The position numbers and the translations under genes were made by a program. The notes under the pieces are model-generated. The model was given only the letters and a program-made list of their open reading frames with translations. It was not told where the DNA came from and made no database searches. Of a DNA stretch of 38,914 bases, positions 211-38,124 are shown in pieces; the first letter of the stretch is position 1; the number at the start of each line of letters is the position of its first letter. The stretch is from contig JANWYU010000212.1 of the NCBI GenBank assembly GCA_025055135.1, positions 1 through 38,914 on the forward strand, in the 5' to 3' direction. This DNA is from Pseudobdellovibrionaceae bacterium. Its GTDB lineage: Bacteria; Bdellovibrionota; Bdellovibrionia; Bdellovibrionales; Bdellovibrionaceae.

Positions 211-1392
211 ATGTTAGTTTTGAAAGATCGGGAAAATAAAGTTATTCGGGTTTTTACGGGAGAGGTCTCTCGTGGTGTGGTATTTTATGATCGTCTTTTG
301 AAAAGGTTATCTGTTAGAGACAGCAGGTTGTTTGAGAGAATGGTGTTTAAGGAATCAAACAGGCTCAATCGTTTTTTGTTAATAAAAGAATTTGAATTAA
401 GTGAGCTAATCAAAAGTCCCTTGTCTTTAGGTCTTTTGGGCACGCTGGAGTTTGTTTCGCTTAATCATCGAGATTTTCTCATCGACACGAGATTTTTTGC
501 GCTTGATAGTAATGAACGCCGTTCGGCCGTTGTTTTGTCCGTTATATCAGTGTTAGCTTTTTGTATTCTATTTATTATTTTTAAGGTGTTACCAAGGGAA
601 ATTTCTCCAAATTTAGAAGAGGAAATTCAGGCTAAATTGGTAGAGATGAGAAAGCTCAATAAGGATACTAAGCCGCAAGTGGTTGTGCCTCATGTGCAAA
701 TTGTTAATAAAAGGTCAGTCCCTGTTACCGTAGTAAACAAAGATGTTTCATCGGCCTCTTCCATGAAGCGTGTTGGCGTTTTAGCAGTTTTGGGAGAATT
801 GCAGAGGGGATCAAAAGTTCCCGGAATTAATTTGGGTAGCGTTAATGTTACAAGTGGGAGTGGTTTGGGCGGGTCATTAGGATCGGGTGGTGTTCAATCT
901 CAGATTTACGCGAAAGGTATGATTGCAGCGCCACTGGGATTGGCACAGCGGCTCGAGGGGGCCGGAGGATATGGTACCAAAGGTTCGGGTGGTGGATCTG
1001 GTGGATATGGAAATATCTCGATCGTAGGATCAAGAGGTCGAAGCTCTTTGGGTGTGGGAGGAAGTGGTTTGGGGTATCAAAGTGGAGGAGCGGGATTGAA
1101 TGAGAATCAAATTCGAGCTGTCATTGAACAAAATAGTGGTCAGGTTCGTTATTGTTATGAACAAGCCCTTCTTCGTAATCCTGAATTAGCAGGAAGGGTA
1201 ACCATTAATTTTATTATTAATGCTAAAGGGTTTGTAACAGAGGCATCAGTAGGTTTTTCGAATTTGAACAATCATGATGTTGAACAATGCATAGTGGATA
1301 AATTAAAAATGTGGCGCTTTCCCTCTCCTGAAGGAGGAGTTGACGTGAAAGTTAGTTACCCTTTTACTCTGAAACGCTCGAGTCAGGGATGA
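211..1392 (+). CDS. AgmX/PglI C-terminal domain protein (TonB-like energy transducer of gliding/envelope machinery)
   Basis: One TM helix (VVLSVISVLAFCILFIIF), a long Gly/Ser-rich linker, and the C-terminal block IRAVIEQNSGQVRYCYEQALLRNPELAGRVTINFIINAKGFVTEASV…CIVDKLKMWRFPSPEGGVDVKVSYPF, typical of AgmX/PglI C-terminal / TonB-C-like domains. Confidence 0.85.
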   Translation: MLVLKDRENKVIRVFTGEVSRGVVFYDRLLKRLSVRDSRLFERMVFKESNRLNRFLLIKEFELSELIKSPLSLGLLGTLEFVSLNHRDFLIDTRFFALDSNERRSAVVLSVISVLAFCILFIIFKVLPREISPNLEEEIQAKLVEMRKLNKDTKPQVVVPHVQIVNKRSVPVTVVNKDVSSASSMKRVGVLAVLGELQRGSKVPGINLGSVNVTSGSGLGGSLGSGGVQSQIYAKGMIAAPLGLAQRLEGAGGYGTKGSGGGSGGYGNISIVGSRGRSSLGVGGSGLGYQSGGAGLNENQIRAVIEQNSGQVRYCYEQALLRNPELAGRVTINFIINAKGFVTEASVGFSNLNNHDVEQCIVDKLKMWRFPSPEGGVDVKVSYPFTLKRSSQG

Positions 1393-1414
1393 ATTTAACG
1401 GAGGAGGTTTTATC

Positions 1415-2665
1415 GTGATTAATTCCAGTACAGTTCAAATTTTTTGGTGGTTGAGAAATTCTTTGGTGGTCATGATTGGGACTTTTGTATTCGTTTCGTG
1501 TCAATGGTCGCAAGACCCAATGGAAAATAAACCAGATTTTATAAAAAAGGCATCGCCATCTAAAAAAACTGTTATTCCTCGACCAATAAATTCGGATGCA
1601 ATACGGCTACATGGCCCCTCGGTTGTAACGGCTAGTGAGAATGAAGAAATTGAAATCGAATTTGAACCGAAATTATTGGTGGATCACTATGTGATTGACG
1701 GTTTTGAGGTTTTAAATTCGGATTTTTTTAGTGAGATACAAGTTGATTCAAAAAAATTTAGCGTTAGATGGAAACCAAGTAAAAAAGACCTCGAATATGA
1801 CGTGTATGTTACCAAAGAATTAAAGGTCAGAGTTTGGGCTAAGCCGCAAGTGCAGATGGATTTACCAGTGATCCAAAGTGAGAGGACCGTGGCCATTCTG
1901 GTTAAAAGAAAGGCTCAGATTCCCACAGTCGAAGAAATTAGTGTGGATGTCAGCCATTTTAGAGAGGGATCGACCTATTTGATGACCATTTTGGTTAGAG
2001 ATGTTAATGGTGGAGAAAAAAAAGGAGTTGAGCCAGCGGTAGAGCTGTTACCACCTAAGGCGACTGATCGGAAAAGATTAGTTAATTTAGCTGCAATGAT
2101 CCATCTCGTCTCTAAGGTAAAAGAAGATCCACAAGGAGATATCTGGAAGTTTCGGTATCAAGTGAGTTTGCCGGATGTCAATTTGACCGACTCTTCTGTG
2201 TTGGGAGGAATGGAAGTAGCGGTGCGAAGTGGGTTTGGAGTGAGCAGTGAACCAGTTTCATTTCGAATTCCAATTTATACTCGTTTAAGTGATCTGGTCG
2301 TTCTAGGGATGCCCCAAAAGTTAAAAGTTGCCGCCGGATCATCTTTAAATTTTGAGTTCTTAGTAGTGGATCCTATGGGGGAAGGGCAGATTCGTGTTGA
2401 TTCCGAGTTGAGTAAGATACCTTTAGGCGCTGAATTAAACTGCAAAAACGAGGAAATTACGACCTTGCTTCAATGTGAGTTTGTTTGGATAACCGGTATG
2501 GAAATGGCTGGAAGATGGTACTTATTGAGTTTGCATGCTGTGAATTCAAATAGAGAGATTAATGATCCTTTAGTCAAAAAACATTGGTTTAAGACATGGA
2601 TTTATGTAGGGCTTGAGTCCGATCGTCCGTCTTGGCCGGAAAATCCCCCAAGTGGACAAGAGTAA
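1415..2665 (+). CDS. Putative lipoprotein, hypothetical
   Basis: Long ORF; N-terminal hydrophobic stretch ending in a lipobox-like FVSC; RBS-like ggaggtt upstream. Confidence 0.7.
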   Translation: MINSSTVQIFWWLRNSLVVMIGTFVFVSCQWSQDPMENKPDFIKKASPSKKTVIPRPINSDAIRLHGPSVVTASENEEIEIEFEPKLLVDHYVIDGFEVLNSDFFSEIQVDSKKFSVRWKPSKKDLEYDVYVTKELKVRVWAKPQVQMDLPVIQSERTVAILVKRKAQIPTVEEISVDVSHFREGSTYLMTILVRDVNGGEKKGVEPAVELLPPKATDRKRLVNLAAMIHLVSKVKEDPQGDIWKFRYQVSLPDVNLTDSSVLGGMEVAVRSGFGVSSEPVSFRIPIYTRLSDLVVLGMPQKLKVAAGSSLNFEFLVVDPMGEGQIRVDSELSKIPLGAELNCKNEEITTLLQCEFVWITGMEMAGRWYLLSLHAVNSNREINDPLVKKHWFKTWIYVGLESDRPSWPENPPSGQE

Positions 2666-2689
2666 CAAAAAAATTAAAGGAGCTGGGGC

Positions 2690-3454
2690 ATGAAAAAATA
2701 TAGAAAAATGACTTTTTCGTTTCTGCGAAAACTGGCCAATGGAGTGTGGTGGTTAGCTTTTTGTAGTTGTTATAATGTAAGTGCCGCTTTCGCTGAAGCC
2801 GATGGTGAGGAACTTACTGATGGTTTGGGTGGAAGTCGTGAAATTGTTGAAAAGTTACAAATAATTAATCCCGTAGTAACAGTTGCCGCTATTCAGAATG
2901 AGTTTTTTCCTCGAAGCGGGCGATGGGAATTGGCCTCGCAGTTATCTTACGGTTTGGGTGGGGATACTTATGTACGAAGTCATAGTGTTGGGTTTAATGG
3001 GTACTACCATATCAACAGGTATTTTTCCTTGGGGATTTCGTGGCAAAAAGTTTACAACTTTCTAACACCAGAGGGAGAACAATCTATTGCGCAGGCAATT
3101 CAGGAATATTATGCCGATCCTTCAGATCCATCACGAGCGTTTCCAGAGGTCAATTATTTAAAAGAGGCCGGTCATTTCAGTTTTTTGTGGTATCCTATTT
3201 ATGGAAAAATTTCCTGGCTAAGTAGTAAGATTATTCAATTTAATAGTTATCTTGCTTTGGGGTTTGGTAACCTAAGCCTCAGATTTCATAATGCAAATAG
3301 CACCCAAGTGGGTTTAGGTTTCAGCTTTTGGGTTACACCCAAGTGGACAATTCGTACTGAAGTTTTGTGGCATTTTTTTGAAGCTCGTTACCACAATCAA
3401 TTGTCGCCTATGAATTGGGTTTTATTGGGAACACAGCTTGGTTATATTTTTTAG
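2690..3454 (+). CDS. Outer-membrane beta-barrel domain protein
   Basis: Signal peptide-like N-terminus; alternating amphipathic strands (WELASQLSYGLGGDTYVRSHSVGFNGYYHINRYFSLGISWQ…) with terminal …LLGTQLGYIF. Confidence 0.7.
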   Translation: MKKYRKMTFSFLRKLANGVWWLAFCSCYNVSAAFAEADGEELTDGLGGSREIVEKLQIINPVVTVAAIQNEFFPRSGRWELASQLSYGLGGDTYVRSHSVGFNGYYHINRYFSLGISWQKVYNFLTPEGEQSIAQAIQEYYADPSDPSRAFPEVNYLKEAGHFSFLWYPIYGKISWLSSKIIQFNSYLALGFGNLSLRFHNANSTQVGLGFSFWVTPKWTIRTEVLWHFFEARYHNQLSPMNWVLLGTQLGYIF

Positions 3455-3466
3455 GAGCGCTTATTT

Positions 3467-5122
3467 ATGCACTGGAATTGGCTGATACTCTTTTTTATTT
3501 TTATTGGTATCTATAGGGCTAATGCGCAGTTCAATCTTAATCATTTTTTTCCTAACCATCAGGGGAGCGACAACCCTAGTTTCGTTCGTCCCGGTAAATA
3601 TGGGGAGTGGGAGCTGGTGTTGCTTCAAGAGTTGAAGCAACTAAACATTGAACAATATGTCGTTTTAGAAAATGTTTTGCAAAAAAAGTACGCAGATGCC
3701 TTAACCGTATTTCAGCAGGCGTTTAGAGAGTTTAATCAAATTCCGACGATAAGGCTGTTTGAGGCGTTTTTATTGTATAAGTCTGGTTTACGTTTGAGTG
3801 GAGTGGAAAAATTGTTGCAAGAAAAAGAGCTAGATCGTGCCCATTTTTATACTTTAAATATTTGGCGATCGCTATTACAAGAATTAACTGACGTTGATTG
3901 GAAGGCGATTGAAGTAACTCCTCATTCAGAGATTAGTCGCTATTTTGGGGGAGAGATAGAGTTACGGGTGTTAGCCAATCAGAATCTTTCAGAACAAAGA
4001 TCAGAACAGTTACTTCCACTTACTTTAAAGACCGTAGACGGAACGTATGAGCAGGCCTTAGTGTACTGGAGCCTTGTGCTTAGTTATCTCAGGGAAAATA
4101 AAACTGAAGAAGCAGCTCGTGTGCTGGTTAAGCTATTGGCGAATGAAAAAACGTTAAAAGCCTTTGATCGCGATTTGGTTTTTTTAACTGCCGGTCGTAT
4201 GCTTTATCAGGCTAAGTTACATCCTGTAGATGTGGAATATTATGCAAAGGTAGGCAAGAAATCTGACCTGTGGCCTATTGCTCGAGAAGAAATGGCTTGG
4301 TCTTTGTTGCGGCATCAGAAGCCCCATGAGGCATTTGCCGTGGCCGATGAAATTGCCCGTCCTATTTTTCATGGTTGGGTCAATCCAGAAGTTTATTTAA
4401 TTTACGGATTGTCCGCACTGGAGTTGTGTCAGTATTCGGCGGTGCAACGCTCGATTGTTATTTTTCGCGATTATATAAAAAAGAGAAAATCACAGTTAGA
4501 TACTTTGCTTGGTTCTGAAATTAAAGAGGAATCTAAAGGGACGCTTCCTGAGGCCCTTTCTTCTTTATTGAAGGCTTTGCAGGGAGAAGAGCAATTTTTT
4601 GTTACTTTGAAGCAGGTTGGTTCTTATATTAATCAGCTTCCGTGGTTGTTTCATCGTAATCGGAGTGTTCGAGATAAGGCTATGGCCCTGAAGGCTGTGC
4701 ATCGTGAGCTAGCTGGTATCAATCAAATAGGGTCAGATTCTGTAAATAGGGATGTTGTTCAATCTTTAAAGAAACGGTGGGAGGAGCGAAGGGCTCAAAT
4801 TGAGCACAGCTTATTAAAGCTATACAGGTTAAAACTCAAGGAGGAGCGAAGCAATTTGGATTTGTTAGTTAAAAAAATGGCCTTACTTGAGGTGGAACTT
4901 TTAAATCACTTAGTGGGTAACAAAAAACTTGGATCATTATCCCAAGTATCCCACCTATCTCAAGTATCCAAAGTATCTAAGGGGAAACATTATGAAAGTA
5001 ACATGAAAAATGGGGCATATCGTTTTAGACGACTGGGTGATGAATTATGGATGGATGAGCTTGGATGGTCTACGGCTGAGGTAAAAGGAGTTACCTGTTT
5101 GACAGAAACGAAAGGGCGGTGA
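3467..5122 (+). CDS. Hypothetical secreted, TPR-like alpha-helical protein
   Basis: 551 aa ORF with signal peptide; helical repeats resembling TPR/Sel1-type repeats; in the same operon as its neighbours. Confidence 0.65.
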   Translation: MHWNWLILFFIFIGIYRANAQFNLNHFFPNHQGSDNPSFVRPGKYGEWELVLLQELKQLNIEQYVVLENVLQKKYADALTVFQQAFREFNQIPTIRLFEAFLLYKSGLRLSGVEKLLQEKELDRAHFYTLNIWRSLLQELTDVDWKAIEVTPHSEISRYFGGEIELRVLANQNLSEQRSEQLLPLTLKTVDGTYEQALVYWSLVLSYLRENKTEEAARVLVKLLANEKTLKAFDRDLVFLTAGRMLYQAKLHPVDVEYYAKVGKKSDLWPIAREEMAWSLLRHQKPHEAFAVADEIARPIFHGWVNPEVYLIYGLSALELCQYSAVQRSIVIFRDYIKKRKSQLDTLLGSEIKEESKGTLPEALSSLLKALQGEEQFFVTLKQVGSYINQLPWLFHRNRSVRDKAMALKAVHRELAGINQIGSDSVNRDVVQSLKKRWEERRAQIEHSLLKLYRLKLKEERSNLDLLVKKMALLEVELLNHLVGNKKLGSLSQVSHLSQVSKVSKGKHYESNMKNGAYRFRRLGDELWMDELGWSTAEVKGVTCLTETKGR

Positions 5123-13264: not shown

Positions 13265-13591
13265 TTAGTGGATATTTTTGTGGGGATGTATTTGTTTAAG
13301 GGCGTTTTCAATGATTTCAAAATAGGCGTGAACCAGGAGGGCTCGGCTCTCCTGATCTAAGTTATTAAGGTAGCCTAATTTTTCGCTTAAAGAAGAGCAG
13401 TTAACAAGATCGCGGATGAGGTCTTCCATTTGTTTTTTTGTTTCCGAAATATTTTTTTTTGTGAGAACGTGTTCCAGCGTGTTTAAAGCCTGTCGAATCT
13501 GATGATTGTGAAATAAAACATGGAAACCGCAAACTGAATGGAGAAGAAGGGCTTCCATTTTTTGGATTTTCTTTTCGATGGTTGCTGACAC
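13265..13591 (-). CDS. Small helical hypothetical protein
   Basis: 108 aa ORF in a gap between neighbouring genes, Leu/Ile/Glu/Lys-rich helices; no family recognised. Confidence 0.45.
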   Translation of the reverse strand: MSATIEKKIQKMEALLLHSVCGFHVLFHNHQIRQALNTLEHVLTKKNISETKKQMEDLIRDLVNCSSLSEKLGYLNNLDQESRALLVHAYFEIIENALKQIHPHKNIH

Positions 13592-13731
13592 GGTCGCCTC
13601 CTTGCGAGAGCATCAGAACACAAGATACTTTTAGTTTAAAAACACCCGTTTCACTCATCAATACATTTCTTTTGACGATTTGTGCCAAATCTTTTCTCAT
13701 TGCTCTTTTTTTTAATGTGATTGTGAATAAT

Positions 13732-14634
13732 TTTATGAAAAAAAGTAATGTTACCCGGCTGCCGCGACTTAAGTCGAGAAAAAAAAGAGTTACTTTAAGA
13801 AGGCCTAAAAAAAGCAAACAAGAAATTGTTATTGATGCCTCACTTGGCTTGGTTTTTAGCTCTGAAGAGGAAATTTTAAACTATTTCGAAGCATACATCA
13901 CTTTTTTAACGAAAAGTTACCAAGAGTTGCAAGATAAGAATGAAGTTCCATTGGAAAACATCGGAGATTTAGAAGACAAGGTAAATCAATCTATTGAAGA
14001 TCCAGATGAGGTTTGGATGTTACCAGAACTTCCAATTGAATTACATGGGAAAAAGATTCCGGTTTTCTCTTTTATTCGTTGGTATGACAATGAAAATTAT
14101 TTCCATGTTCTGTTGACCCATGTTGATGCTAATGATGAGCCAACTTTTATTTATTACCAATTTTTTACTAGAGATCGAAATATTGTTGAGCACTTCCGCA
14201 GGGGGCGGATGGTTTACGATCAAACCTTGCACTCCTTAGAGTTTGCAATGATTGATGGGGATGCCCTCAGTGAAGGAGATCCCCTGGCCGTTGGCCTGTT
14301 TAATGCTATGTTAAAGTTACGTTCGGCAAATGATGTTCCTTTTGATAAGTTCAAAGAACTTGGCGAGCAATGTAGAGACATAACCATTGAATCTGCTGAT
14401 GAAATTTGGAGAGTACAAGATAGTTCTGGTAACATTTTAGTTACTTTTATTAGGGATTTTCCTGATCATGGAATAAAAGATTTGCACTATATCGTAGTTA
14501 CTCAACAGGACGTATCCTCGGGTGTATATGGTTTGTTGTTTTCATTTCCCACAAATGATCTAAATTTAGTAGAGCGCTATCGGCATGGTGAAAATTTAGA
14601 GGCTGATGATATTAATCAAGAGTCTGCTCATTAA
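13732..14634 (+). CDS. Hypothetical protein with two tandem related domains, possibly PBECR2/RelE-like nuclease fold
   Basis: Start inferred at ATG of MKKSNVTRLPRLKSRKKR within ORF 13582..14634. Two internally similar blocks (DEVW…FIRWYD…FRRG and DEIW…FIRDFPDH…YRHG). Confidence 0.55.
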   Translation, partial: FMKKSNVTRLPRLKSRKKRVTLRRPKKSKQEIVIDASLGLVFSSEEEILNYFEAYITFLTKSYQELQDKNEVPLENIGDLEDKVNQSIEDPDEVWMLPELPIELHGKKIPVFSFIRWYDNENYFHVLLTHVDANDEPTFIYYQFFTRDRNIVEHFRRGRMVYDQTLHSLEFAMIDGDALSEGDPLAVGLFNAMLKLRSANDVPFDKFKELGEQCRDITIESADEIWRVQDSSGNILVTFIRDFPDHGIKDLHYIVVTQQDVSSGVYGLLFSFPTNDLNLVERYRHGENLEADDINQESAH

Positions 14635-17870: not shown

Positions 17871-19589
17871 ATGGCTAAAATAGGGGAGTTGCTAGTAAAA
17901 GAAGGTTACCTTAAAAGTGATCAATTACAAAAGGCGCAAGAATATTCTAAGCGTACTGGTCAAAATTTGATTTCGGCGATTATTAATCTTGGTTTTTTGA
18001 CAGATGAACAAATTTTAAAGGCCAAAGAAAAAATTTTTAAAATACCTGGGGTTGATCTCAATAAATTTCCAGTTCAAAAGTCGGCAGTAGAACTGATTCC
18101 TCGAGATTTTTGCGAAAAAAACATCCTAATTCCTATTCAAACTGTGGGTGATCAGGCTATTTTAATTGCTTTTGCAGAACCAGGAAACTTACAGATTCTT
18201 GATCAAATCCGCTTTATTACCAAAAGAAAAATCCAATCTGTTGTTGGTACAGAGCCTTCCATTTTGGCAGCAATTGATCGATACCATATGGCTTCGGCCT
18301 CGGTGGCGCAGGGAGCCCTGGCGGAGGTAGAGGCATTTAGTGAAGGGGATGTTGCCGTTGGAGGCGATGCTGTCGTTAATTTGGCTGGTGTTGATTCGAG
18401 CGGAGGTGAGGACGCCCCTATTGTAAAATTTGTGCATACAATTTTGCTTGAGGCCATTCGTCTTAAGGCCTCTGACATTCACTTTGAGCCTTATGAAAAA
18501 CGATTGCGCGTCCGTTTTCGCTTGGATGGTAACTTGGTTGAGGTGCAAAACCAACCAGTGGGAATTGCCAGTGCTGTAGCCAGCCGATTAAAGATTATGA
18601 GTAAATTGGACATTGCTGAAAAGAGAAGACCCCAAGATGGACGAATTAAGATCCAGTTTAAAACGACAAAAGGCATACAGGACATGGATTTTAGGGTAAG
18701 TGTTATGCCGACGATTCATGGGGAAAAGATCGTTCTAAGGCTACTTGATAAAACCAATTTGCAGTTAGATATGACCAAATTGGGGTTTGAGCCTGATGAT
18801 TTAGAGCTGTTCCGTAAGCACATTCATATGCCTCAGGGCATGATTTTGATCACGGGACCAACCGGATCAGGAAAGACGACTACTATTTATTCAGCCTTAG
18901 CCGATTTAAATAAACCTGATGTAAATATTTCAACGGCTGAGGATCCGGTGGAATTTAATTTAGAGGGAATTAATCAGCTTCAAGTGAATCCAGATATCGG
19001 AGTTACTTTTTCTGAGGCCTTAAAAACGTTTTTGCGGCAGGACCCTGATATCATTATGGTGGGTGAGATTCGTGATTTAGAGACGGCAGAGATTGCGGCC
19101 AAAGCAGCTTCCACTGGGCATTTGGTGGTAAGCACTCTTCACACAAACGATGCTCCCCAAACCGTAACCAGGTTAATTGAAATGGGAGTAGCTCCCTATG
19201 TTATTACTTCGACCATCAACCTAATCGTTGCTCAGCGATTAATCGGAAAAATATGTGATACCTGCAAAGTCTTGCAGAAAGTGCCCGATCAAGTACTTCT
19301 TGATTTAGGGGCCGATTATGCGGAGCTGGGAGAGTACAAAATCTTTTCGGCAAAAGGCTGTAATGTTTGTCATGGTTCAGGCATTAAGGGGAGAATCGCT
19401 ATTTTTGAATTATTAGTCATGAGTGATTCTATTAAAGAGGCCGTGCTTAAGGGAGCTAGTGCCAATGAATTGCGCATAATTGCCAAGAAAGAGGGAATGA
19501 GAACCTTACGAAGATCGGCACTGTTAAAACTCAAAAGAGGCCAAACGACGATTCAAGAGGTGATTAATTCATCGGTGAGGGATGTATGA
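17871..19589 (+). CDS. pilB: Type IV pilus assembly ATPase PilB
   Basis: T2SSE N-terminal domain; Walker A GPTGSGKTTT; Asp box STAEDPVEFN; Walker B DPDIIMVGEIRDLETAEIA; His box STLHTNDAPQT; zinc Cys motif CDTC…CNVCHGSGIKGR. Confidence 0.95.
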   Translation: MAKIGELLVKEGYLKSDQLQKAQEYSKRTGQNLISAIINLGFLTDEQILKAKEKIFKIPGVDLNKFPVQKSAVELIPRDFCEKNILIPIQTVGDQAILIAFAEPGNLQILDQIRFITKRKIQSVVGTEPSILAAIDRYHMASASVAQGALAEVEAFSEGDVAVGGDAVVNLAGVDSSGGEDAPIVKFVHTILLEAIRLKASDIHFEPYEKRLRVRFRLDGNLVEVQNQPVGIASAVASRLKIMSKLDIAEKRRPQDGRIKIQFKTTKGIQDMDFRVSVMPTIHGEKIVLRLLDKTNLQLDMTKLGFEPDDLELFRKHIHMPQGMILITGPTGSGKTTTIYSALADLNKPDVNISTAEDPVEFNLEGINQLQVNPDIGVTFSEALKTFLRQDPDIIMVGEIRDLETAEIAAKAASTGHLVVSTLHTNDAPQTVTRLIEMGVAPYVITSTINLIVAQRLIGKICDTCKVLQKVPDQVLLDLGADYAELGEYKIFSAKGCNVCHGSGIKGRIAIFELLVMSDSIKEAVLKGASANELRIIAKKEGMRTLRRSALLKLKRGQTTIQEVINSSVRDV

Positions 19590-20536
19590 TGGGTTATGAA
19601 TTAGTCTTAAAGGCTATTCGTAACAAAAAGGCTTTTTTGTTCGAGTTCCGCACTGATGGACTTGTTTTCATCTATGATGGCATTGTTTGGGAGAAATTGG
19701 ATAATCCTGACTTGCCAGCGTTGGATGAATGGTTACCCACCTTTGTGGATCAGCTAACCCCCGATATCAAAATGAAGCACAAAAATCAGGCTTCGTGGAG
19801 GGTTGAGCTGGATTATTCGGGAGAGAACTTCATTTGTTCATACTCTCATCACTATAAGAGTTTGCGTATCTCCCGTGCCCCCTCGAAAGCCCTTAATTTA
19901 AAAGAATGGGGTTTCCTGGAAAATCAAATAAAGAGCTTATCACAGCCAGGACAAATTACTTTAATTACCGGGCCGCAAATGAGTGGAAAATCGACTTTGC
20001 AAAAATTGTTAATGAAATCGTCAGAAATCGGAGGGGTGTTACCAGTTGTTAAAGAGCCTGGTAGCCTTATTCCCTCGCCGAGAATTTGGTATTTTGGCGA
20101 TGAGAAAAATATCCCAATACGCGAGGTTTTGGATTTATCTTTGTACGGACAAAGTGTCTGTTTAGCCTTCGAAGCTTTGGACTTGGAGGCCTGTCTTCTA
20201 CGGTTTTTTGAGCACATTCCGACAGTTTTTCAGGACCGAGTGATTCAATTTTTAACAGTTGTCGAAACGAGATTGTTACCTGGAGTGGAACAGTTGGTGG
20301 TTCCCTTTTCTTCGTTCTATCAATTGCGCTATTGCCCTCAAATCATGTTAGATAAAAAGGATTGGAATGCTCTTTTAACATGGAATGAGGGTAGCAAAGA
20401 AAATTTTAATGTGAGGACATTAAATCAAGCCTTACTTCAGGGGGTTATCAGGAGGAAGATTGAAATGCAAACTGCCTTTTCTGCGTCAACCTTTCCGGAA
20501 GGATTAGACTTACTATTAAAAAGATTAGGAGTATAA
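19586..20536 (+). CDS. Divergent, probably catalytically degenerate PilT-like secretion ATPase
   Basis: Start overlaps pilB stop (ATGATG). PSKALNLKEWGFLENQIKSLSQPGQITLITGPQMSGKST aligns with the PilT core; C-terminal layout matches PilT without the Asp/His boxes. Confidence 0.7.
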   Translation: MMGYELVLKAIRNKKAFLFEFRTDGLVFIYDGIVWEKLDNPDLPALDEWLPTFVDQLTPDIKMKHKNQASWRVELDYSGENFICSYSHHYKSLRISRAPSKALNLKEWGFLENQIKSLSQPGQITLITGPQMSGKSTLQKLLMKSSEIGGVLPVVKEPGSLIPSPRIWYFGDEKNIPIREVLDLSLYGQSVCLAFEALDLEACLLRFFEHIPTVFQDRVIQFLTVVETRLLPGVEQLVVPFSSFYQLRYCPQIMLDKKDWNALLTWNEGSKENFNVRTLNQALLQGVIRRKIEMQTAFSASTFPEGLDLLLKRLGV

Positions 20537-20539
20537 GCC

Positions 20540-21751
20540 GTGAACAAATTTGCCTACTTAGCTACGACTCCGAAGGGCAAAACGATATCTGGTCAATTGG
20601 ATGCTGAGGATGAGGCAAGTGCTCGCATTTTGTTAAGGGCTCGAAATCTGAATCCTATTAGGGTGGTAAAAGTGAAAGGGACCTCATCTACTCCTTCAGG
20701 ATTTGTTGTCAAAGGCAGGATATCCTCTCGGGATCTCCAAATTTTTACCAGGCAATTCTCTACCTTGATCAGTGCTGGAATTCCGATTCTAGATTCTTTA
20801 AAAATTTTAGGAGAAGGGAAAAAGAATCCAACATTGAAGGAGGTTTTGTCGAAGGTGCAAGCAAGCATTCAGCAGGGAAAGAAGCTTGGAGATGCATTAG
20901 GGGCTCATGGAAATATTTTCGACCGCTTGTATGTGAATATGGTGAAGGCGGGAGAAGAAGCAGGTATTCTTGATGGAATTCTACAAAGATTATCGGTTTA
21001 TTTAGAAAAGGCTGAAAAGATAAAAAAACAGATTAAAAGTGCCATGGTGTACCCTGTTTCTATAATTGTTTTGGCCTTGATTGTGATTACAGGAATATTG
21101 ATTTTTATCGTACCAAAATTCCAGGAGCTTTATAAAGGCAAGAAAGAGTTACCGGCTTTGACTCAGATGGTAGTCGATATGAGTCATTTCATCATAGAAA
21201 AATGGTATTTGGTCATAGCTTTCATTCTCGGGGTTCCTTTTATTTTTTTTCAGTGGTATCGATCGGCTGAAGGAAGAGAACTTGTAGAACGTTTTTTAAT
21301 TAGGGCCCCCGTTCTTGGCGAAGTGGTTCAAAAAGCAGCGATCGCGCGTATGACTCGTACTTTGTCAACTCTCTTGTCCGCGGGAGTTCCAGTTATCGAC
21401 GCCTTAGAGATTGCAGCCAAAACTGCAGGAAATGTGGTCATTGAAGAAACCCTGTTGCGCTGTAAGGAAAGTGTCATTCAGGGTAAAAGTATTGGGTTGC
21501 CTTTGTCCAAAGAAAAGATGATTCCCGATATGGTAGCCCAGATGGTAACCATTGGTGAAGCTTCCGGAACTTTAGATACCATGTTAGGTAAGGTAGCCGA
21601 TTTTTATGAGGATGACGTGGAAAATGCCATTAAGGCAGCTACCTCTTTGATTGAGCCTGTTTTAATGGTGGTTGTTGGAGGCTTTATTGCCTTCTTAGTC
21701 ATTGCTATCTATCTGCCCATCTTTGATGTGGCTAGCTTGCGACCTGAATGA
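20540..21751 (+). CDS. pilC: Type IV pilus inner-membrane platform protein PilC
   Basis: FTRQFSTLISAGIPILDSLKIL, MVKAGEEAGILDGILQRLSVYLEKAEKIKKQIKSAMVYP, duplicated T2SSF domains, IGEASGTLDTML…PVLMVVVGGFIAFLVIAIYLPIF. Confidence 0.96.
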   Translation: MNKFAYLATTPKGKTISGQLDAEDEASARILLRARNLNPIRVVKVKGTSSTPSGFVVKGRISSRDLQIFTRQFSTLISAGIPILDSLKILGEGKKNPTLKEVLSKVQASIQQGKKLGDALGAHGNIFDRLYVNMVKAGEEAGILDGILQRLSVYLEKAEKIKKQIKSAMVYPVSIIVLALIVITGILIFIVPKFQELYKGKKELPALTQMVVDMSHFIIEKWYLVIAFILGVPFIFFQWYRSAEGRELVERFLIRAPVLGEVVQKAAIARMTRTLSTLLSAGVPVIDALEIAAKTAGNVVIEETLLRCKESVIQGKSIGLPLSKEKMIPDMVAQMVTIGEASGTLDTMLGKVADFYEDDVENAIKAATSLIEPVLMVVVGGFIAFLVIAIYLPIFDVASLRPE

Positions 21752-23277
21752 AATACGTCTGGCTTATTCCGAGTATCATTTATGCATTGTTAATCATTTT
21801 AGCTGGAGCTATTTATTTGATTGAAGGTTACCTAGTCCAAATCAGGACGCTTCAGATTTTATACTTTATAGGCGCTTTGGGTTTAATTGGTCAGTCCATT
21901 ATTATTTTTTGGGAACAGAGAAAAAAAATAGTAACGAGGTCCATTCAAGTACTCGATTTGATTTTAATCTCTTCCGCTATGTTTCTGGTAACTTCTGGTC
22001 AGAGCCTTCTTTTCTTTCTTGTTTTAGTATACGTTTTTTACACTGGCTTAACAGGATCTCATCGATGGCTGGATTTAGTAACAGGTTATTTTATTTTTGT
22101 TAACGTAATATCACAGTATTTGATGTTTGATCAAATGACTCTTCCTGACATTCTCATGCAACTTATCTTTGCGATGTCGCTTTTGGTGGTTAACTTTATG
22201 AGTCGATCGGTTGCGGCGAGTTTTTCAGAAGAGCAACAAAAAAATGCATTTTTACAAAAGTTAAATCAAGCAATTTTCGCTAATGTGCCCTATGGTTTTC
22301 TTGTTACTAATCCTGACGATGGTACTTTAGTTCATTATAATCCTTACTTACGAGATCTTTTTTTAAAGGTTCGTCCGCAGACAAACCCTTTTGAAGTTAC
22401 TAGTCTATTTGAGATTTTTCCTGAATTAAAGACTTTGGATACTTCGGATCGGATGGGATTGGATCTCATTCACAAGGTAGCTGACGGATTTGTGTTTTTA
22501 AGGGCGAAGCTGGTTAAATTGTTAGGAATCACTCCTCACTCTAACCTTTACATCATTGAAGATCGAACTGAGATTGAGAGATTAGAAATGAGTCGCAGAC
22601 AATCTGAAAAATTGGCTGCGATAGGAACCTTAGCTGCTGGAATTGCTCATGAGATTCGCAATCCATTAGCTGGAATCAGTGGTGCTTTGCAGTTGCTAGA
22701 ACCAAACATTGTTACCGATGAATCAAAGCGCTTAGTTAAAATTGTGTTTCGTGAAATCGATCGACTAAATGGACTCATCACGGAGTTTTTGGATTTTGCC
22801 CGTCCAGAGCCTCCTCCTCCTACCTCTTTAGTGAATTTAAAAACTATTTTAACAGATTGTTTTTTAGTTGTGGTTAATGATCCTCGCTTTCCTTTTTTGA
22901 AAGACCTGAAGCCATTTCAATTTGAAGAAGATTTTTTTATTTTGGGATACTCAGATAAGCTCAAGCAGATGTTTGTTAACATTATGGTTAATGCAGCCGA
23001 ATCCATGATTCAATCTCCTGAAAAAAAATTACAGGTTACCTTAAAGAAACAGGATAATCTCGTTAAAGTGGTCATTGAAGATACGGGAGAGGGTATGGAT
23101 TCCGAGACCGTTCAAAAAATTTTCGAGCCATTTTTTACGACTAAGGACAAGGGAACTGGACTGGGGATGGCTATTGTTCTTAAAATCGTCCAAAATCATC
23201 GGGGTTATATTTTCGTAGAAAGTCAGAAAGGAAAGGGGACTCGAATCGAAATTCACTTTCCTACTGCTGTAACTTAA
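21748..23277 (+). CDS. pilS: PilS-like sensor histidine kinase
   Basis: N-terminal TM bundle, PAS-like region, H-box AAGIAHEIRNPLAGISGALQLL, N-box FVNIMVNAAESM, G boxes EDTGEGMDSETVQKIFEPFFTTKDKGTGLGMAIV; followed by pilR. Confidence 0.88.
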   Translation: MKYVWLIPSIIYALLIILAGAIYLIEGYLVQIRTLQILYFIGALGLIGQSIIIFWEQRKKIVTRSIQVLDLILISSAMFLVTSGQSLLFFLVLVYVFYTGLTGSHRWLDLVTGYFIFVNVISQYLMFDQMTLPDILMQLIFAMSLLVVNFMSRSVAASFSEEQQKNAFLQKLNQAIFANVPYGFLVTNPDDGTLVHYNPYLRDLFLKVRPQTNPFEVTSLFEIFPELKTLDTSDRMGLDLIHKVADGFVFLRAKLVKLLGITPHSNLYIIEDRTEIERLEMSRRQSEKLAAIGTLAAGIAHEIRNPLAGISGALQLLEPNIVTDESKRLVKIVFREIDRLNGLITEFLDFARPEPPPPTSLVNLKTILTDCFLVVVNDPRFPFLKDLKPFQFEEDFFILGYSDKLKQMFVNIMVNAAESMIQSPEKKLQVTLKKQDNLVKVVIEDTGEGMDSETVQKIFEPFFTTKDKGTGLGMAIVLKIVQNHRGYIFVESQKGKGTRIEIHFPTAVT

Positions 23278-23331: not shown

Positions 23332-24744
23332 ATGAAGCCGCGTATCTTAGTGGTCGATGATGAAGAGTCTATCCGGGAATTTTTAGAAATTATGTTAAAA
23401 AAAGAGGGTTACGAGGTTTCACTGGCGGAAGACGGTGAGCAGGGCAGGGAGTTTATAAAAAACAAAACGTTCGATATGGTGATTTCGGACCTACAAATGC
23501 CTAAATTAAACGGATTAGAGTTACTCAAATGGACCAAGCAAAACTATCCCGATATTACTTTTATGATGATTACGGCATTCGGTACCACAGAATCTGCAGT
23601 AGAGGCCATGAAGATGGGGGCGTATGACTATATAACCAAACCTTTTAAAATTGACGAGGTTAAGATTGTTATTGCCAACGCCCTAAAAGCAAAACACTTG
23701 GAGGTGGAAAATCGTGTTTTGCGTAAGGAATTAAAAGCCACGTTTTCCTTTCAACAGATGGTTGGTAATTCCGAGGCGATGCATCGTATTTTTGACTTAA
23801 TTCAGCGGGTGAGTCAGGCCCCTTCCAATGTGATAATTACCGGGGAATCTGGGACTGGAAAAGAAATGGTGGCTAAGGCCATTCATTATAATGGGGCTTT
23901 AAAAGATCGACCTTTTGTGAGTGTCAATTGCGGGGCCATTCCTGAGGCTTTAATTGAGTCGGAGTTATTTGGTCATAAAAAAGGTGCATTTACCAGTGCT
24001 ATTGCTGATAAAGCTGGTCTTTTTGAAGTGGCCAACGGGGGAACTTTGTTTTTGGATGAAGTGGGAGAATTACCGTTATCAGTTCAGGTAAAGCTGTTGC
24101 GTGCCCTTCAAGAACGGGTTATTCGCCGACTGGGAGCGAACGATGATATTAAAATTGACGTTCGTATTATCGCTGCTACCAATCGCGACCTGCAAAAAAT
24201 GGTAGCAGAGGGGACCTTCCGCCAAGATCTATTTTATCGATTGAATGTAATTCACATTCATTTACCTCCGCTGCGCGAGCGAAAAGAAGATATCCCTCTT
24301 CTTGTTAATTTTTTTGTTAAAAAGTTTAACGAACGCCTCGGCAAAAACATCAGTGGTGTTTCTCAAGAGGCGATGGATCTTTTAATGAAATACCATTATC
24401 CGGGAAATGTGCGCGAACTGGAAAATATTATCGAGCGGACCATGGCCTTGGAAACTGGGTCGATCATTCTTCCTGAAAGCCTTCCCCCTTTATCGGGTAA
24501 ATCTTCTGAGCCAGATGGTGCTAAGTTCAGGACCACTTATGAGATTGAACTTGATAAAAATGGGATTGATTTAGAGAAGGTGTTAGGTCAAATTGAGAAG
24601 GAACTGATTTTGAAGGCCATTCATTTGGCTGGCGGGGTGAAAAAAAATGCCGCCAAATTACTGAAGGTTACTCCCCGCTCCATGCGTTACCGATGTGATA
24701 AATATAATCTCGGCCCTATGGAGGATGAGGCTGAGGACATCTAA
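23332..24744 (+). CDS. pilR: NtrC-family sigma-54 response regulator, PilR-like
   Basis: Receiver (ILVVDDEESIREFL, MVISDLQMPKLNG), AAA+ GESGTGKEMVAKAIH, GAFTSA, C-terminal Fis-type HTH. Confidence 0.92.
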   Translation: MKPRILVVDDEESIREFLEIMLKKEGYEVSLAEDGEQGREFIKNKTFDMVISDLQMPKLNGLELLKWTKQNYPDITFMMITAFGTTESAVEAMKMGAYDYITKPFKIDEVKIVIANALKAKHLEVENRVLRKELKATFSFQQMVGNSEAMHRIFDLIQRVSQAPSNVIITGESGTGKEMVAKAIHYNGALKDRPFVSVNCGAIPEALIESELFGHKKGAFTSAIADKAGLFEVANGGTLFLDEVGELPLSVQVKLLRALQERVIRRLGANDDIKIDVRIIAATNRDLQKMVAEGTFRQDLFYRLNVIHIHLPPLRERKEDIPLLVNFFVKKFNERLGKNISGVSQEAMDLLMKYHYPGNVRELENIIERTMALETGSIILPESLPPLSGKSSEPDGAKFRTTYEIELDKNGIDLEKVLGQIEKELILKAIHLAGGVKKNAAKLLKVTPRSMRYRCDKYNLGPMEDEAEDI

Positions 24745-24911: not shown

Positions 24912-26012
24912 TTAGGATGCCCGAAAGTGTTGGGCGCTAAACGGAAGCTTATTATCAATTAACTCTTGAAGGAAGCTAGGGACATTTCCTGTTGGTTCCA
25001 ATCTCCCATGGAGCCGTCCGTCGGTACCCCGAATGAGACGAGGAATATGATAAATGGGAACCACATTATAGGCACCCTTTTCATCGAATCCAACAACCTC
25101 GGAGATAGAAGTTACCTTTCGGGAACCATCGCTAAGTCGGCTAATCTGCACAATGAGCTCCACAGCAGAGGCTACTTGATAGCGCAAGGCCTTTTCTGAG
25201 AGTTTGGTATCTCCCCCAGAGGCAAGGGCCTCTAACCGCACAATGGCATCTTCAGGGGTGTTGGCATGAACGGTTCCCATCGATCCTTTATGACCGGTAT
25301 TCATAGCTTGAATGAGTTCTAACGCCTCGCTAGAGCGAACCTCACCAACGATAATACGGTCCGGTCGTAAGCGTAAGGCACTTTTTAATAGATCTCGTAT
25401 GGTAACCTCTCCTTTTCCCATTTGATCAGCCTGTTTTGTTTCAAAAAAAACCACATGATCGTGCTGGATTTTCAATTCGCTTGAATCCTCAATGACGATA
25501 ATGCGTTGGGTTTTAGGGATATAAGAGCAAAGTAGGGACAATAAAGTGGTTTTACCGGAGCCTGTTCCGCCACTGACTAAAAGGTTTTTCCCGAGAAGTA
25601 CACAGGCATTTAAAAATAAGGCCGCTTCCTGTGTGATGGATCCAAGTGCTATATACTCTTTAAAGGTAATTTGGGATTGGGTGAATTTTCGGATACTTAC
25701 AGTGGTTCCATTTCGGGCGCAGGGAGGAATGACCACGGCAACCCGAGACCCATCGGGAAGGCGGGCATCTAAACGGGGCTCGTCCTCCGATATCCGTCGA
25801 CCCACGCTCTGAGCAATATTGTTTACAGCCGCTCTTAAACTATCCTCATCGCTGAACTTTTTATCGGTCTTATAAAGAATGCCCTTTTTTTCTACAAAAA
25901 TTTCATGGGGTCCGTTAATTAAAATTTCACTAATGGTTGGGTCATCCCATAATTCGGTAATGGGTCCTAAAAAATTGCGAACCGCAGCTGCTACCACCGA
26001 AGATTTTGTCAT
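24912..26012 (-). CDS. cpaF: CpaF/TadA-type secretion ATPase
   Basis: ITELWDDPTISEILINGPHEIFVEKKG; LVSGGTGSGKTTLLSLL; RPDRIIVGEVRSSEALELIQAMNTGHKGSMGTVHANTPEDAIVRLE. Confidence 0.92.
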   Translation of the reverse strand: MTKSSVVAAAVRNFLGPITELWDDPTISEILINGPHEIFVEKKGILYKTDKKFSDEDSLRAAVNNIAQSVGRRISEDEPRLDARLPDGSRVAVVIPPCARNGTTVSIRKFTQSQITFKEYIALGSITQEAALFLNACVLLGKNLLVSGGTGSGKTTLLSLLCSYIPKTQRIIVIEDSSELKIQHDHVVFFETKQADQMGKGEVTIRDLLKSALRLRPDRIIVGEVRSSEALELIQAMNTGHKGSMGTVHANTPEDAIVRLEALASGGDTKLSEKALRYQVASAVELIVQISRLSDGSRKVTSISEVVGFDEKGAYNVVPIYHIPRLIRGTDGRLHGRLEPTGNVPSFLQELIDNKLPFSAQHFRAS

Positions 26013-36858: not shown

Positions 36859-38124
36859 CTAGGCCGCAGATTTTTTTGATTCTTCGTGTTTTATTTGTTC
36901 ACTGTTGATGGAGCGTTTCAGATAATTTTCCAAGTAATTAATAAAACTCGTCCACTCTTGATTGCTTTCCACCACCCGAAAACCACATTTTTTCTGAATT
37001 TTGTCATGCCACACAAGAGAGATTACTAAGTCGATGGGAGCAATTCCTGCTGGATGTAAACGAAGGTGATATCGAGAAGCATCGGGCAAATCACCGATTA
37101 GTGATCCCCCAATTCCTGTAAAGCTAAGATTGGTGATTTTAATTCTACCAATAATTTTTTTATAATCAGAATGATCATATATTTGACCATAAAAGGTAAC
37201 CATATACCTTTTGTATCTGGGTGATTTCGAGTCCAGGCCTTTAGGATGAGGAATGAGGTTTCTGTATCTTTTATCGTCGTATATTTCATGAAGGCGGTGT
37301 AATTCATATTCACTCAGCTCAAAAAGAATTTGTGATTTTTTGATAAAAAACCATTCAAATTCCTCAGGGGCTAGTAAACTATTAAAATGAATTTGAGGGG
37401 AACGCTCAGGAAATTCCATATTGATTCTTGGTAGTTCAAAAAATAGAGAATACATAGTTATTCGTTCTTCAAACTGTCCGTAGTGCGCATAATATCGTTC
37501 GGCGGCAACTCGTAGGTCCAAAATTCCTCCCATTGCAGGATTGTGATTTATAAAATCGTAGGGAACAGGTTTATCATTCAATTTTTTAAAGAGAAGTATG
37601 TGATAGTAAAAATCTTGCCATTTAGGATTAATTGCAATAACAAAATGGGTAACCCCCAAAAAATCGGTTGCATAGTGATAGAGAAATTTGAAAAGAGGGA
37701 AAAGAATAGTTCCCTTGCGGTTTTTAAATGGCTTTTTTACTGCTAGCGATGAAATTTCTGCAATTTCACCGTTAATGTGAGAAAGATCAAATAAAGCATC
37801 TGATGGAATACCAAAAACGGACTTTCGAATTAAGGTAACCGTAGCGACCACTTCTTCGTTCCAGAGTGCGACTAGTACGGATGAAGTTGGTAGCATATGA
37901 TATTTAGTAACTCGAATACCACTTTTTTCTGGAGTGATTAAACCTTCTTCAGTATATGCATCATGTAAAATAGAAAAGGCCTGTTCTAATTCTCTGTGGG
38001 TGGTTGCTACCTTGAATTTAAGTTCCCTTGGAAAAGGATAGGGAACTTTAACTAACTTCCTTAAAATCGGTCCTTTGAGATTGTCTGGTAACCATTTTGC
38101 CAGTTTCCGAAATGAAATTTTCAT
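36859..38124 (-). CDS. FeeM-like N-acyltransferase (GNAT fold) fused to C-terminal PilZ-like domain
   Basis: FKVATTHRELEQAFSILHDAYTEEGLI…LVALWNEEVVATVTLIRKSVFGIPSDALFDLSHI…AEISSLAVKK…THFVIAINPKWQDFYY; C-terminal RYKRY…GRIKITNLSFTGIGGSL with an NxSxxG PilZ motif. Confidence 0.65.
   Translation of the reverse strand: MKISFRKLAKWLPDNLKGPILRKLVKVPYPFPRELKFKVATTHRELEQAFSILHDAYTEEGLITPEKSGIRVTKYHMLPTSSVLVALWNEEVVATVTLIRKSVFGIPSDALFDLSHINGEIAEISSLAVKKPFKNRKGTILFPLFKFLYHYATDFLGVTHFVIAINPKWQDFYYHILLFKKLNDKPVPYDFINHNPAMGGILDLRVAAERYYAHYGQFEERITMYSLFFELPRINMEFPERSPQIHFNSLLAPEEFEWFFIKKSQILFELSEYELHRLHEIYDDKRYRNLIPHPKGLDSKSPRYKRYMVTFYGQIYDHSDYKKIIGRIKITNLSFTGIGGSLIGDLPDASRYHLRLHPAGIAPIDLVISLVWHDKIQKKCGFRVVESNQEWTSFINYLENYLKRSINSEQIKHEESKKSAA

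Follow-up and report, generated by a model that had tools for sequence, protein, structure and literature searches.

The window, i.e., the whole stretch of 38,914 nucleotides that was analyzed, carries a set of type IV pilus genes on its plus strand; ORF calls together with domain searches gave the order pilB, the ORF at 19586-20536 with which this work is concerned, pilC, and pilS-like and pilR-like genes, as follows:

17871-19589, plus strand: pilB, extension ATPase of 572 aa with intact motifs, upstream operon partner (TIGR02538, E 1.8e-224)
19586-20536, plus strand: pilT1-type gene for a predicted, catalytically degenerate PilT of 316 aa (ORF, motifs, fold, profiles)
20540-21751, plus strand: pilC, inner-membrane platform protein of 403 aa (PF00482, T2SSF, E 4e-66)
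21748-23277, plus strand: pilS-like histidine kinase (HisKA and HATPase_c)
23332-24744, plus strand: pilR-like sigma-54 response regulator (Response_reg, Sigma54_activat, HTH_8)

The initial annotation had placed the ORF between pilB and pilC with an ATGA overlap, and the ORF call and the junction sequence confirmed this arrangement: the start of the ORF lies inside the pilB stop codon, and pilC begins 3 bases after its end. The stretch immediately past pilR encodes, on the minus strand, a CpaF/TadA-like secretion ATPase (24912-26012).

Regarding the motifs of the protein, its segments were assigned as follows, all on the plus strand and by alignment unless noted:

19586-19879, plus strand: N-terminal PilT domain, residues 1 to about 98 (alignment, and a model of low confidence in this part)
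19970-19993, plus strand: Walker A, GPQMSGKS, residues 129-136, intact
20048-20059, plus strand: place of the Asp box, VKEP, residues 155-158, lost
20084-20101, plus strand: place of the Walker B/catalytic Glu block, IWYFGD, residues 167-172, GE-RD lost
20165-20176, plus strand: place of the His box, AFEA, residues 194-197, lost
20390-20533, plus strand: conserved C-terminal 48 residues, 269-316, TLNQALLQ..RRKIEMQTAF.....LD.LLKRLG (identity and within-genus changes)

Walker A, described from the outset as near intact, agrees with the pattern G-x4-GK[ST]. The alterations reported for the Asp box, the GE(M/I)RD block, and the His box are found at the aligned columns, where the GE(L/M)RD block reads GDEK; the column of the AIRNLIRE helix reads CPQIMLDK, and this helix motif is absent. 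The places of the Asp box and the Glu block are about 16 residues apart (155, 171) versus about 45 in a canonical slot PilT (159, 204), a spacing that agrees with the earlier estimate of about 30 residues missing between the Asp box and Walker B. Judged by these alignments, the protein has lost the residues that PilT and PilU motors use for ATP hydrolysis, and it may still bind nucleotide, Walker A having survived. In the earlier suggestion of a nucleotide-binding regulatory subunit, the words "regulatory subunit" are a matter of interpretation.

As for its identity, single-sequence family searches hardly recognize the protein: Pfam gave only T2SSE at E 0.045, NCBIfam searched with the protein alone gave no PilT match and nothing to TIGR01420 up to E 1, and the PDB returned PilT at E 0.01. 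These searches were set aside as too weak to prove identity by themselves, and the identification therefore rests on relatives and on the fold. Aligned to nine canonical slot PilTs, the single sequence gave an hhalign probability of 98.7% (E 1.5e-16); the profile of 23 slot proteins from the family matched Geobacter PilT-4 over its full length (E 5.3e-58). TIGR01420 matched 21 of 23 family slot proteins, a Bdellovibrio member scoring 71.9 bits against the curated cut-off of 319.1 bits, which the window protein also fails. The AlphaFold model of the window protein, of medium confidence (pLDDT 69.6, pTM 0.65), has the N-domain and the RecA-like C-terminal domain of a PilT; Foldseek against the PDB returned PilT or PilU as its top 24 matches, with PilT4 as the best (E 9.6e-16), and the match to PilT was better than that to PilU. 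The PilT fold proposed earlier was thus borne out, the structure search finding PilT and PilU first, and the alternative of a different fold failed. The overall TM-score reached only 0.56; a different placement of the two domains, together with the low confidence of the modeled N-domain, is the probable cause.

In a tree of paralogues, the slot proteins are separate from PilT2 and PilT3; the very long branches limit what this tree proves where the degenerate proteins are concerned, and their position and tail are judged the better evidence; the tail of the window protein aligns with slot PilT and not with PilT2. Position, tail, and Bdellovibrionaceae relatives place the gene in the slot lineage rather than with PilT2/PilT3, and it is almost certainly the operon pilT, orthologous to pilT1 (Bd1510) of Bdellovibrio, and catalytically dead. 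This supports the earlier reading as a pseudo-ATPase and not that of a separate, novel subunit, since the protein is an orthologue of the canonical operon PilT. The kind of protein in this slot is already known from PilT1/Bd1510, with which the window gene shares the pilB-pilT1-pilC-pilS-pilR arrangement, the loss of catalytic motifs, and the conserved C-terminal tail; it is a divergent, Walker-A-retaining member. Bdellovibrio copies have 347 aa and have lost Walker A (GPGEAGQV), whereas the window copy has 316 aa, keeps Walker A, is about 30 residues shorter ahead of Walker B, and shares only about 20% identity with them.

The interval between pilB and pilC was examined in 55 genomes, including that of the window itself (2.0 Mb in 231 contigs). 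A profile of nine slot sequences found its relatives, within the named collection, in Bdellovibrio and other Bdellovibrionaceae. The count for the family comprises 30 slot proteins from 19 genera, the unreadable G020, G025, G028, and G035 being left out. None of the 30 carries an Asp box, a GE-RD block, or a His box; 14 have an intact Walker A, 2 an altered one, and 14 have lost it, and the frame is open in all 30 genes. Both the pilB-X-pilC position and the loss of motifs are therefore conserved in Bdellovibrionaceae. The loss is not local, no orthologue having intact boxes, and a sequencing error or a local pseudogene was rejected on the strength of the 30 open frames and the motif loss in every copy. 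Among 23 slot proteins from the remaining families of the order, 21 are canonical PilTs of 353-370 aa with all motifs; the other two, G039 (L091:2906-3976) and G038 (L096:2815-3837), are degenerate slot PilTs outside Bdellovibrionaceae. The degeneration in G039 looks recent (GPTRSGRS, VENPVE, GDIGT, TCFA).

The tree of PilB plus PilC, which was midpoint-rooted, recovered the family as monophyletic (support 1.0) with G039 and G038 outside it, the position of G038 being uncertain owing to its long branch; because these two fall outside, inactivation would have occurred at least three independent times. Walker A was lost mostly within a single clade, to which Bdellovibrio belongs (support 0.96); G011, sister to the window genome, and G003 lost it separately. 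Genus g2 and the clade of g6 and g11 lack the N-terminal domain, which, provided the tree is correct, disappeared two times or more (supports 0.67 to 0.996). Structure prediction gave the 240-aa short form high confidence (pLDDT 90.7) and the fold of the PilT C-terminal domain (2eyu, TM 0.83). The slot gene is absent in G004 (L083) and G022 (L082), both of genus g5 of Bdellovibrionaceae; there, pilC begins 2 bases after pilB, the pseudo-PilT being lost and PilT2 kept.

The slot proteins share with the canonical operon PilT (Geobacter PilT-4 type, TIGR01420) the fold, the domain order, the C-terminal tail, and the operon position, and differ from it by the absent catalytic motifs and by a body that is about 20% identical between genera, against 54-70%. 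By region, identity in the degenerate proteins was 20% for the N-domain, 21% for the nucleotide-binding part, and 19% for the part that follows, versus 54, 70, and 58% in canonical slot PilTs; over the last 48 residues it was 45% in the family and 52% in the canonical proteins. The family as a whole is not fast-evolving, since PilB (65% in the family, 56% in the outgroup) and PilC (58 and 53%, respectively) are no less conserved than in the outgroup. Within genera, pN was lower in the tail than in the rest of the gene in 53 of 53 pairs, which are not independent of each other, and synonymous changes were about equally frequent in both parts; this pattern of fewer amino-acid but similar synonymous changes indicates that the constraint on the tail acts on the protein and not on the DNA ahead of pilC. 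The Bdellovibrio pair G006/G033, the sole one with a usable ratio, dS being saturated for most pairs, gave a dN/dS of 0.035 for the slot gene, about twice that of pilB (0.016) and pilC (0.018). By these measures, taken in relatives while the window gene itself comes from one fragmented genome, the slot gene is a real gene under selection, mainly in its tail.

One or more PilTs scoring above the TIGR01420 cut-off are present in each of the genomes tested. In the window's own genome this is PilT2 (G000:C50; L005/L097), a protein of 353 aa with all motifs and likely the retraction motor. Other candidates for the genome's own canonical PilT were rejected: L002 is GspE-like with cysteine pairs, its start being cut by the contig edge, and L003, L004, and L006 are CpaF/TadA-like. 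The genome has three CpaF/TadA-like ATPases (window 24912-26012, L003, and L006), and the one at L003:1207-3462, minus strand (G000:C206), is a 751-aa fusion of the TadZ-TadA type, in which a ParA/MinD-like N-terminal part precedes a CpaF-like ATPase; a T2SSF protein follows it. A third PilT paralogue of 380-473 aa with a C-terminal extension occurs in many families of the order (L098-L103, L105, and others). It was found only outside Bdellovibrionaceae and never together with a degenerate or missing slot PilT, so that such slots, in three lineages, occur only in genomes without it; intact slots also occur without the third PilT (f8, G057). These distributions give a hint of a link between loss of the third PilT and degeneration of the slot.

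Type IV pili are needed for Bdellovibrio predation. The only functional evidence found on PilT1 is the deletion data of Chanyi and Koval (2014, PMC4237445), who had described B. bacteriovorus PilT1 (Bd1510) as lacking Walker A and other PilT motifs. In their work, deletion of pilT2 abolished plaques and left 92.5% of the prey biofilm, and the double deletion of pilT1 and pilT2 regained plaques and left 50.2%; deletion of pilT1 alone left 27.9% against 35.4% for the wild type, a gain in predation that was not statistically significant according to the authors (PMC4237445). Upon deletion of pilT1, piliated cells went from 27.0 to 33.4% by immunofluorescence, and by electron microscopy they amounted to 8.2% in the mutant versus 22.3% (PMC4237445). 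The authors proposed a PilU-like role for PilT1, or one in pilus regulation or stability, and their other explanations include protease regulation (PMC4237445).

A literature search for type IV pilus pseudo-ATPases found none. Besides PilT1, the nearest comparisons are with PilU and with mutant PilT. PilU of Pseudomonas aeruginosa and Vibrio cholerae, the analogue suggested for PilT1 (PMC4237445), is likewise a second PilT-like protein beside a working PilT; however, its Walker A and B are functional and its C-terminus is longer by about 30 residues (PMC12607626, PMC6762196), whereas the window protein has lost the Glu block of Walker B and ends at the PilT tail with no extension. V. cholerae PilU works only with PilT present, even a PilT with Walker A or B substitutions (PMC6762196), and the two proteins are predicted to stack back to back via their C-terminal faces (PMC12607626). 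Such a mutant resembles the window case, as read from its motifs, in being a non-hydrolysing PilT beside an active paralogue; it is made in the laboratory, whereas the state in Bdellovibrionaceae is natural and family-wide, and the genetics point to antagonism and not to coupling.

The interpretation put forward here, tentatively and with a little under an even chance of being right, is that PilT1 is a non-hydrolysing PilT that modulates, and probably brakes, the pilus motor through its tail. PilT2 would have taken over retraction, with the operon PilT retained as a non-hydrolysing member of the motor; PilT1 would touch a partner (PilT2, another copy of PilT1, or the PilB/PilC platform) via its conserved C-terminal 48 residues and dampen or hold motor activity, and a working PilT2 would be needed to overcome it. 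The order of the deletion effects (pilT2, pilT1, double) is what removal of an antagonist predicts. Against it, the gains of the pilT1 single mutant are small, and the count of piliated cells by electron microscopy fell. A brake of this kind would not be universal, because genus g5 has no slot gene. The broader proposition, namely a natural pseudo-ATPase brake whose 48-residue tail is selected, with inactivation repeated in at least three lineages of the order, parallel loss of Walker A and the N-domain, and loss of the gene once, is possible and should be held more loosely.

The same inactive protein could serve as an adaptor, a dead PilT1 ring coupling active PilT2 to PilC like the inactive V. 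cholerae PilT with PilU; this is unlikely in spite of a direct precedent, the dependence of PilU retraction on even a Walker-mutant PilT (PMC6762196), and of the predicted C-terminal contact between PilT and PilU (PMC12607626), the C-terminal segment being the conserved part here. Loss of an adaptor should resemble loss of PilT2, yet deletion of pilT1 keeps plaques and biofilm predation and partly rescues the pilT2 deletion, and it is because of this rescue that braking is favored over coupling. Moreover, genus g5 retains PilT2 without the slot gene, where an adaptor should be needed, and PilT2 is a canonical PilT, the kind that docks unaided in other systems. An action of PilT1 on PilB or PilC (assembly, stability, or conformation) and not on retraction, or, as a variant of this, a role as nucleotide sensor in lineages that keep Walker A, the window's among them, is doubtful. 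It would suit the strict position between pilB and pilC, the coding overlap with pilB in the window, the lower count of piliated cells by electron microscopy, and the pilus regulation or stability role of Chanyi and Koval; however, the position came down from the canonical operon pilT, which fills 21 of 23 slots in the outgroup, and so says little on a new role, and immunofluorescence was of opposite sign to electron microscopy. Nucleotide binding as the common function is impossible, with Walker A lost in 14 of the 30 proteins and altered in 2 more.

Slow decay of the operon pilT into a functionless relic after PilT2 took over would account for the low identity of the body, the recurrent losses of Walker A and the N-domain, the total loss in genus g5, and the mild phenotype of the pilT1 deletion. 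It is nevertheless improbable: the dN/dS is low, all 30 frames are open, the tail is nearly as well conserved as that of canonical PilT, an ordered fold is predicted for the short form, and a neutral relic would not have lasted through 19 genera. Finally, the protein might still hydrolyse ATP at a modified active site, at least where Walker A is kept, as it is in the window (14 of 30); this is hardly credible given that the Asp box, the catalytic Glu block, and the His box are found in none of the 30 and that the window protein is without about 30 residues between the Asp box and Walker B.

With the braking interpretation kept as the preferred one, what is new here is the family-wide loss of motifs, the presence of a canonical PilT outside the slot in every genome, the conservation of the tail, and the short forms folding as the PilT C-terminal domain. 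The long-annotated pilT1 is catalytically degenerate in every readable Bdellovibrionaceae slot, which corrects its annotation and fits the mild knock-out. The family also offers a natural series of stripped motor proteins, in which first the catalytic motifs, next Walker A, after it an entire domain, and finally the gene are gone; one constrained segment survives the series, and the role of the PilT C-terminal tail is therefore directly testable.

As for the rest of the window, four consecutive ORFs on the plus strand at 211-5122 (393, 416, 254, and 551 aa) had no Pfam match at E 1e-4. The ORF at 13582-14634, plus strand, has a PBECR2 nuclease-like domain (E 2.1e-9) of the phage Barnase-EndoU-colicin-RelE group, and a 421-aa protein encoded at 36859-38124 on the minus strand has a FeeM-like N-acyl amino acid synthase domain (E 1.1e-32).
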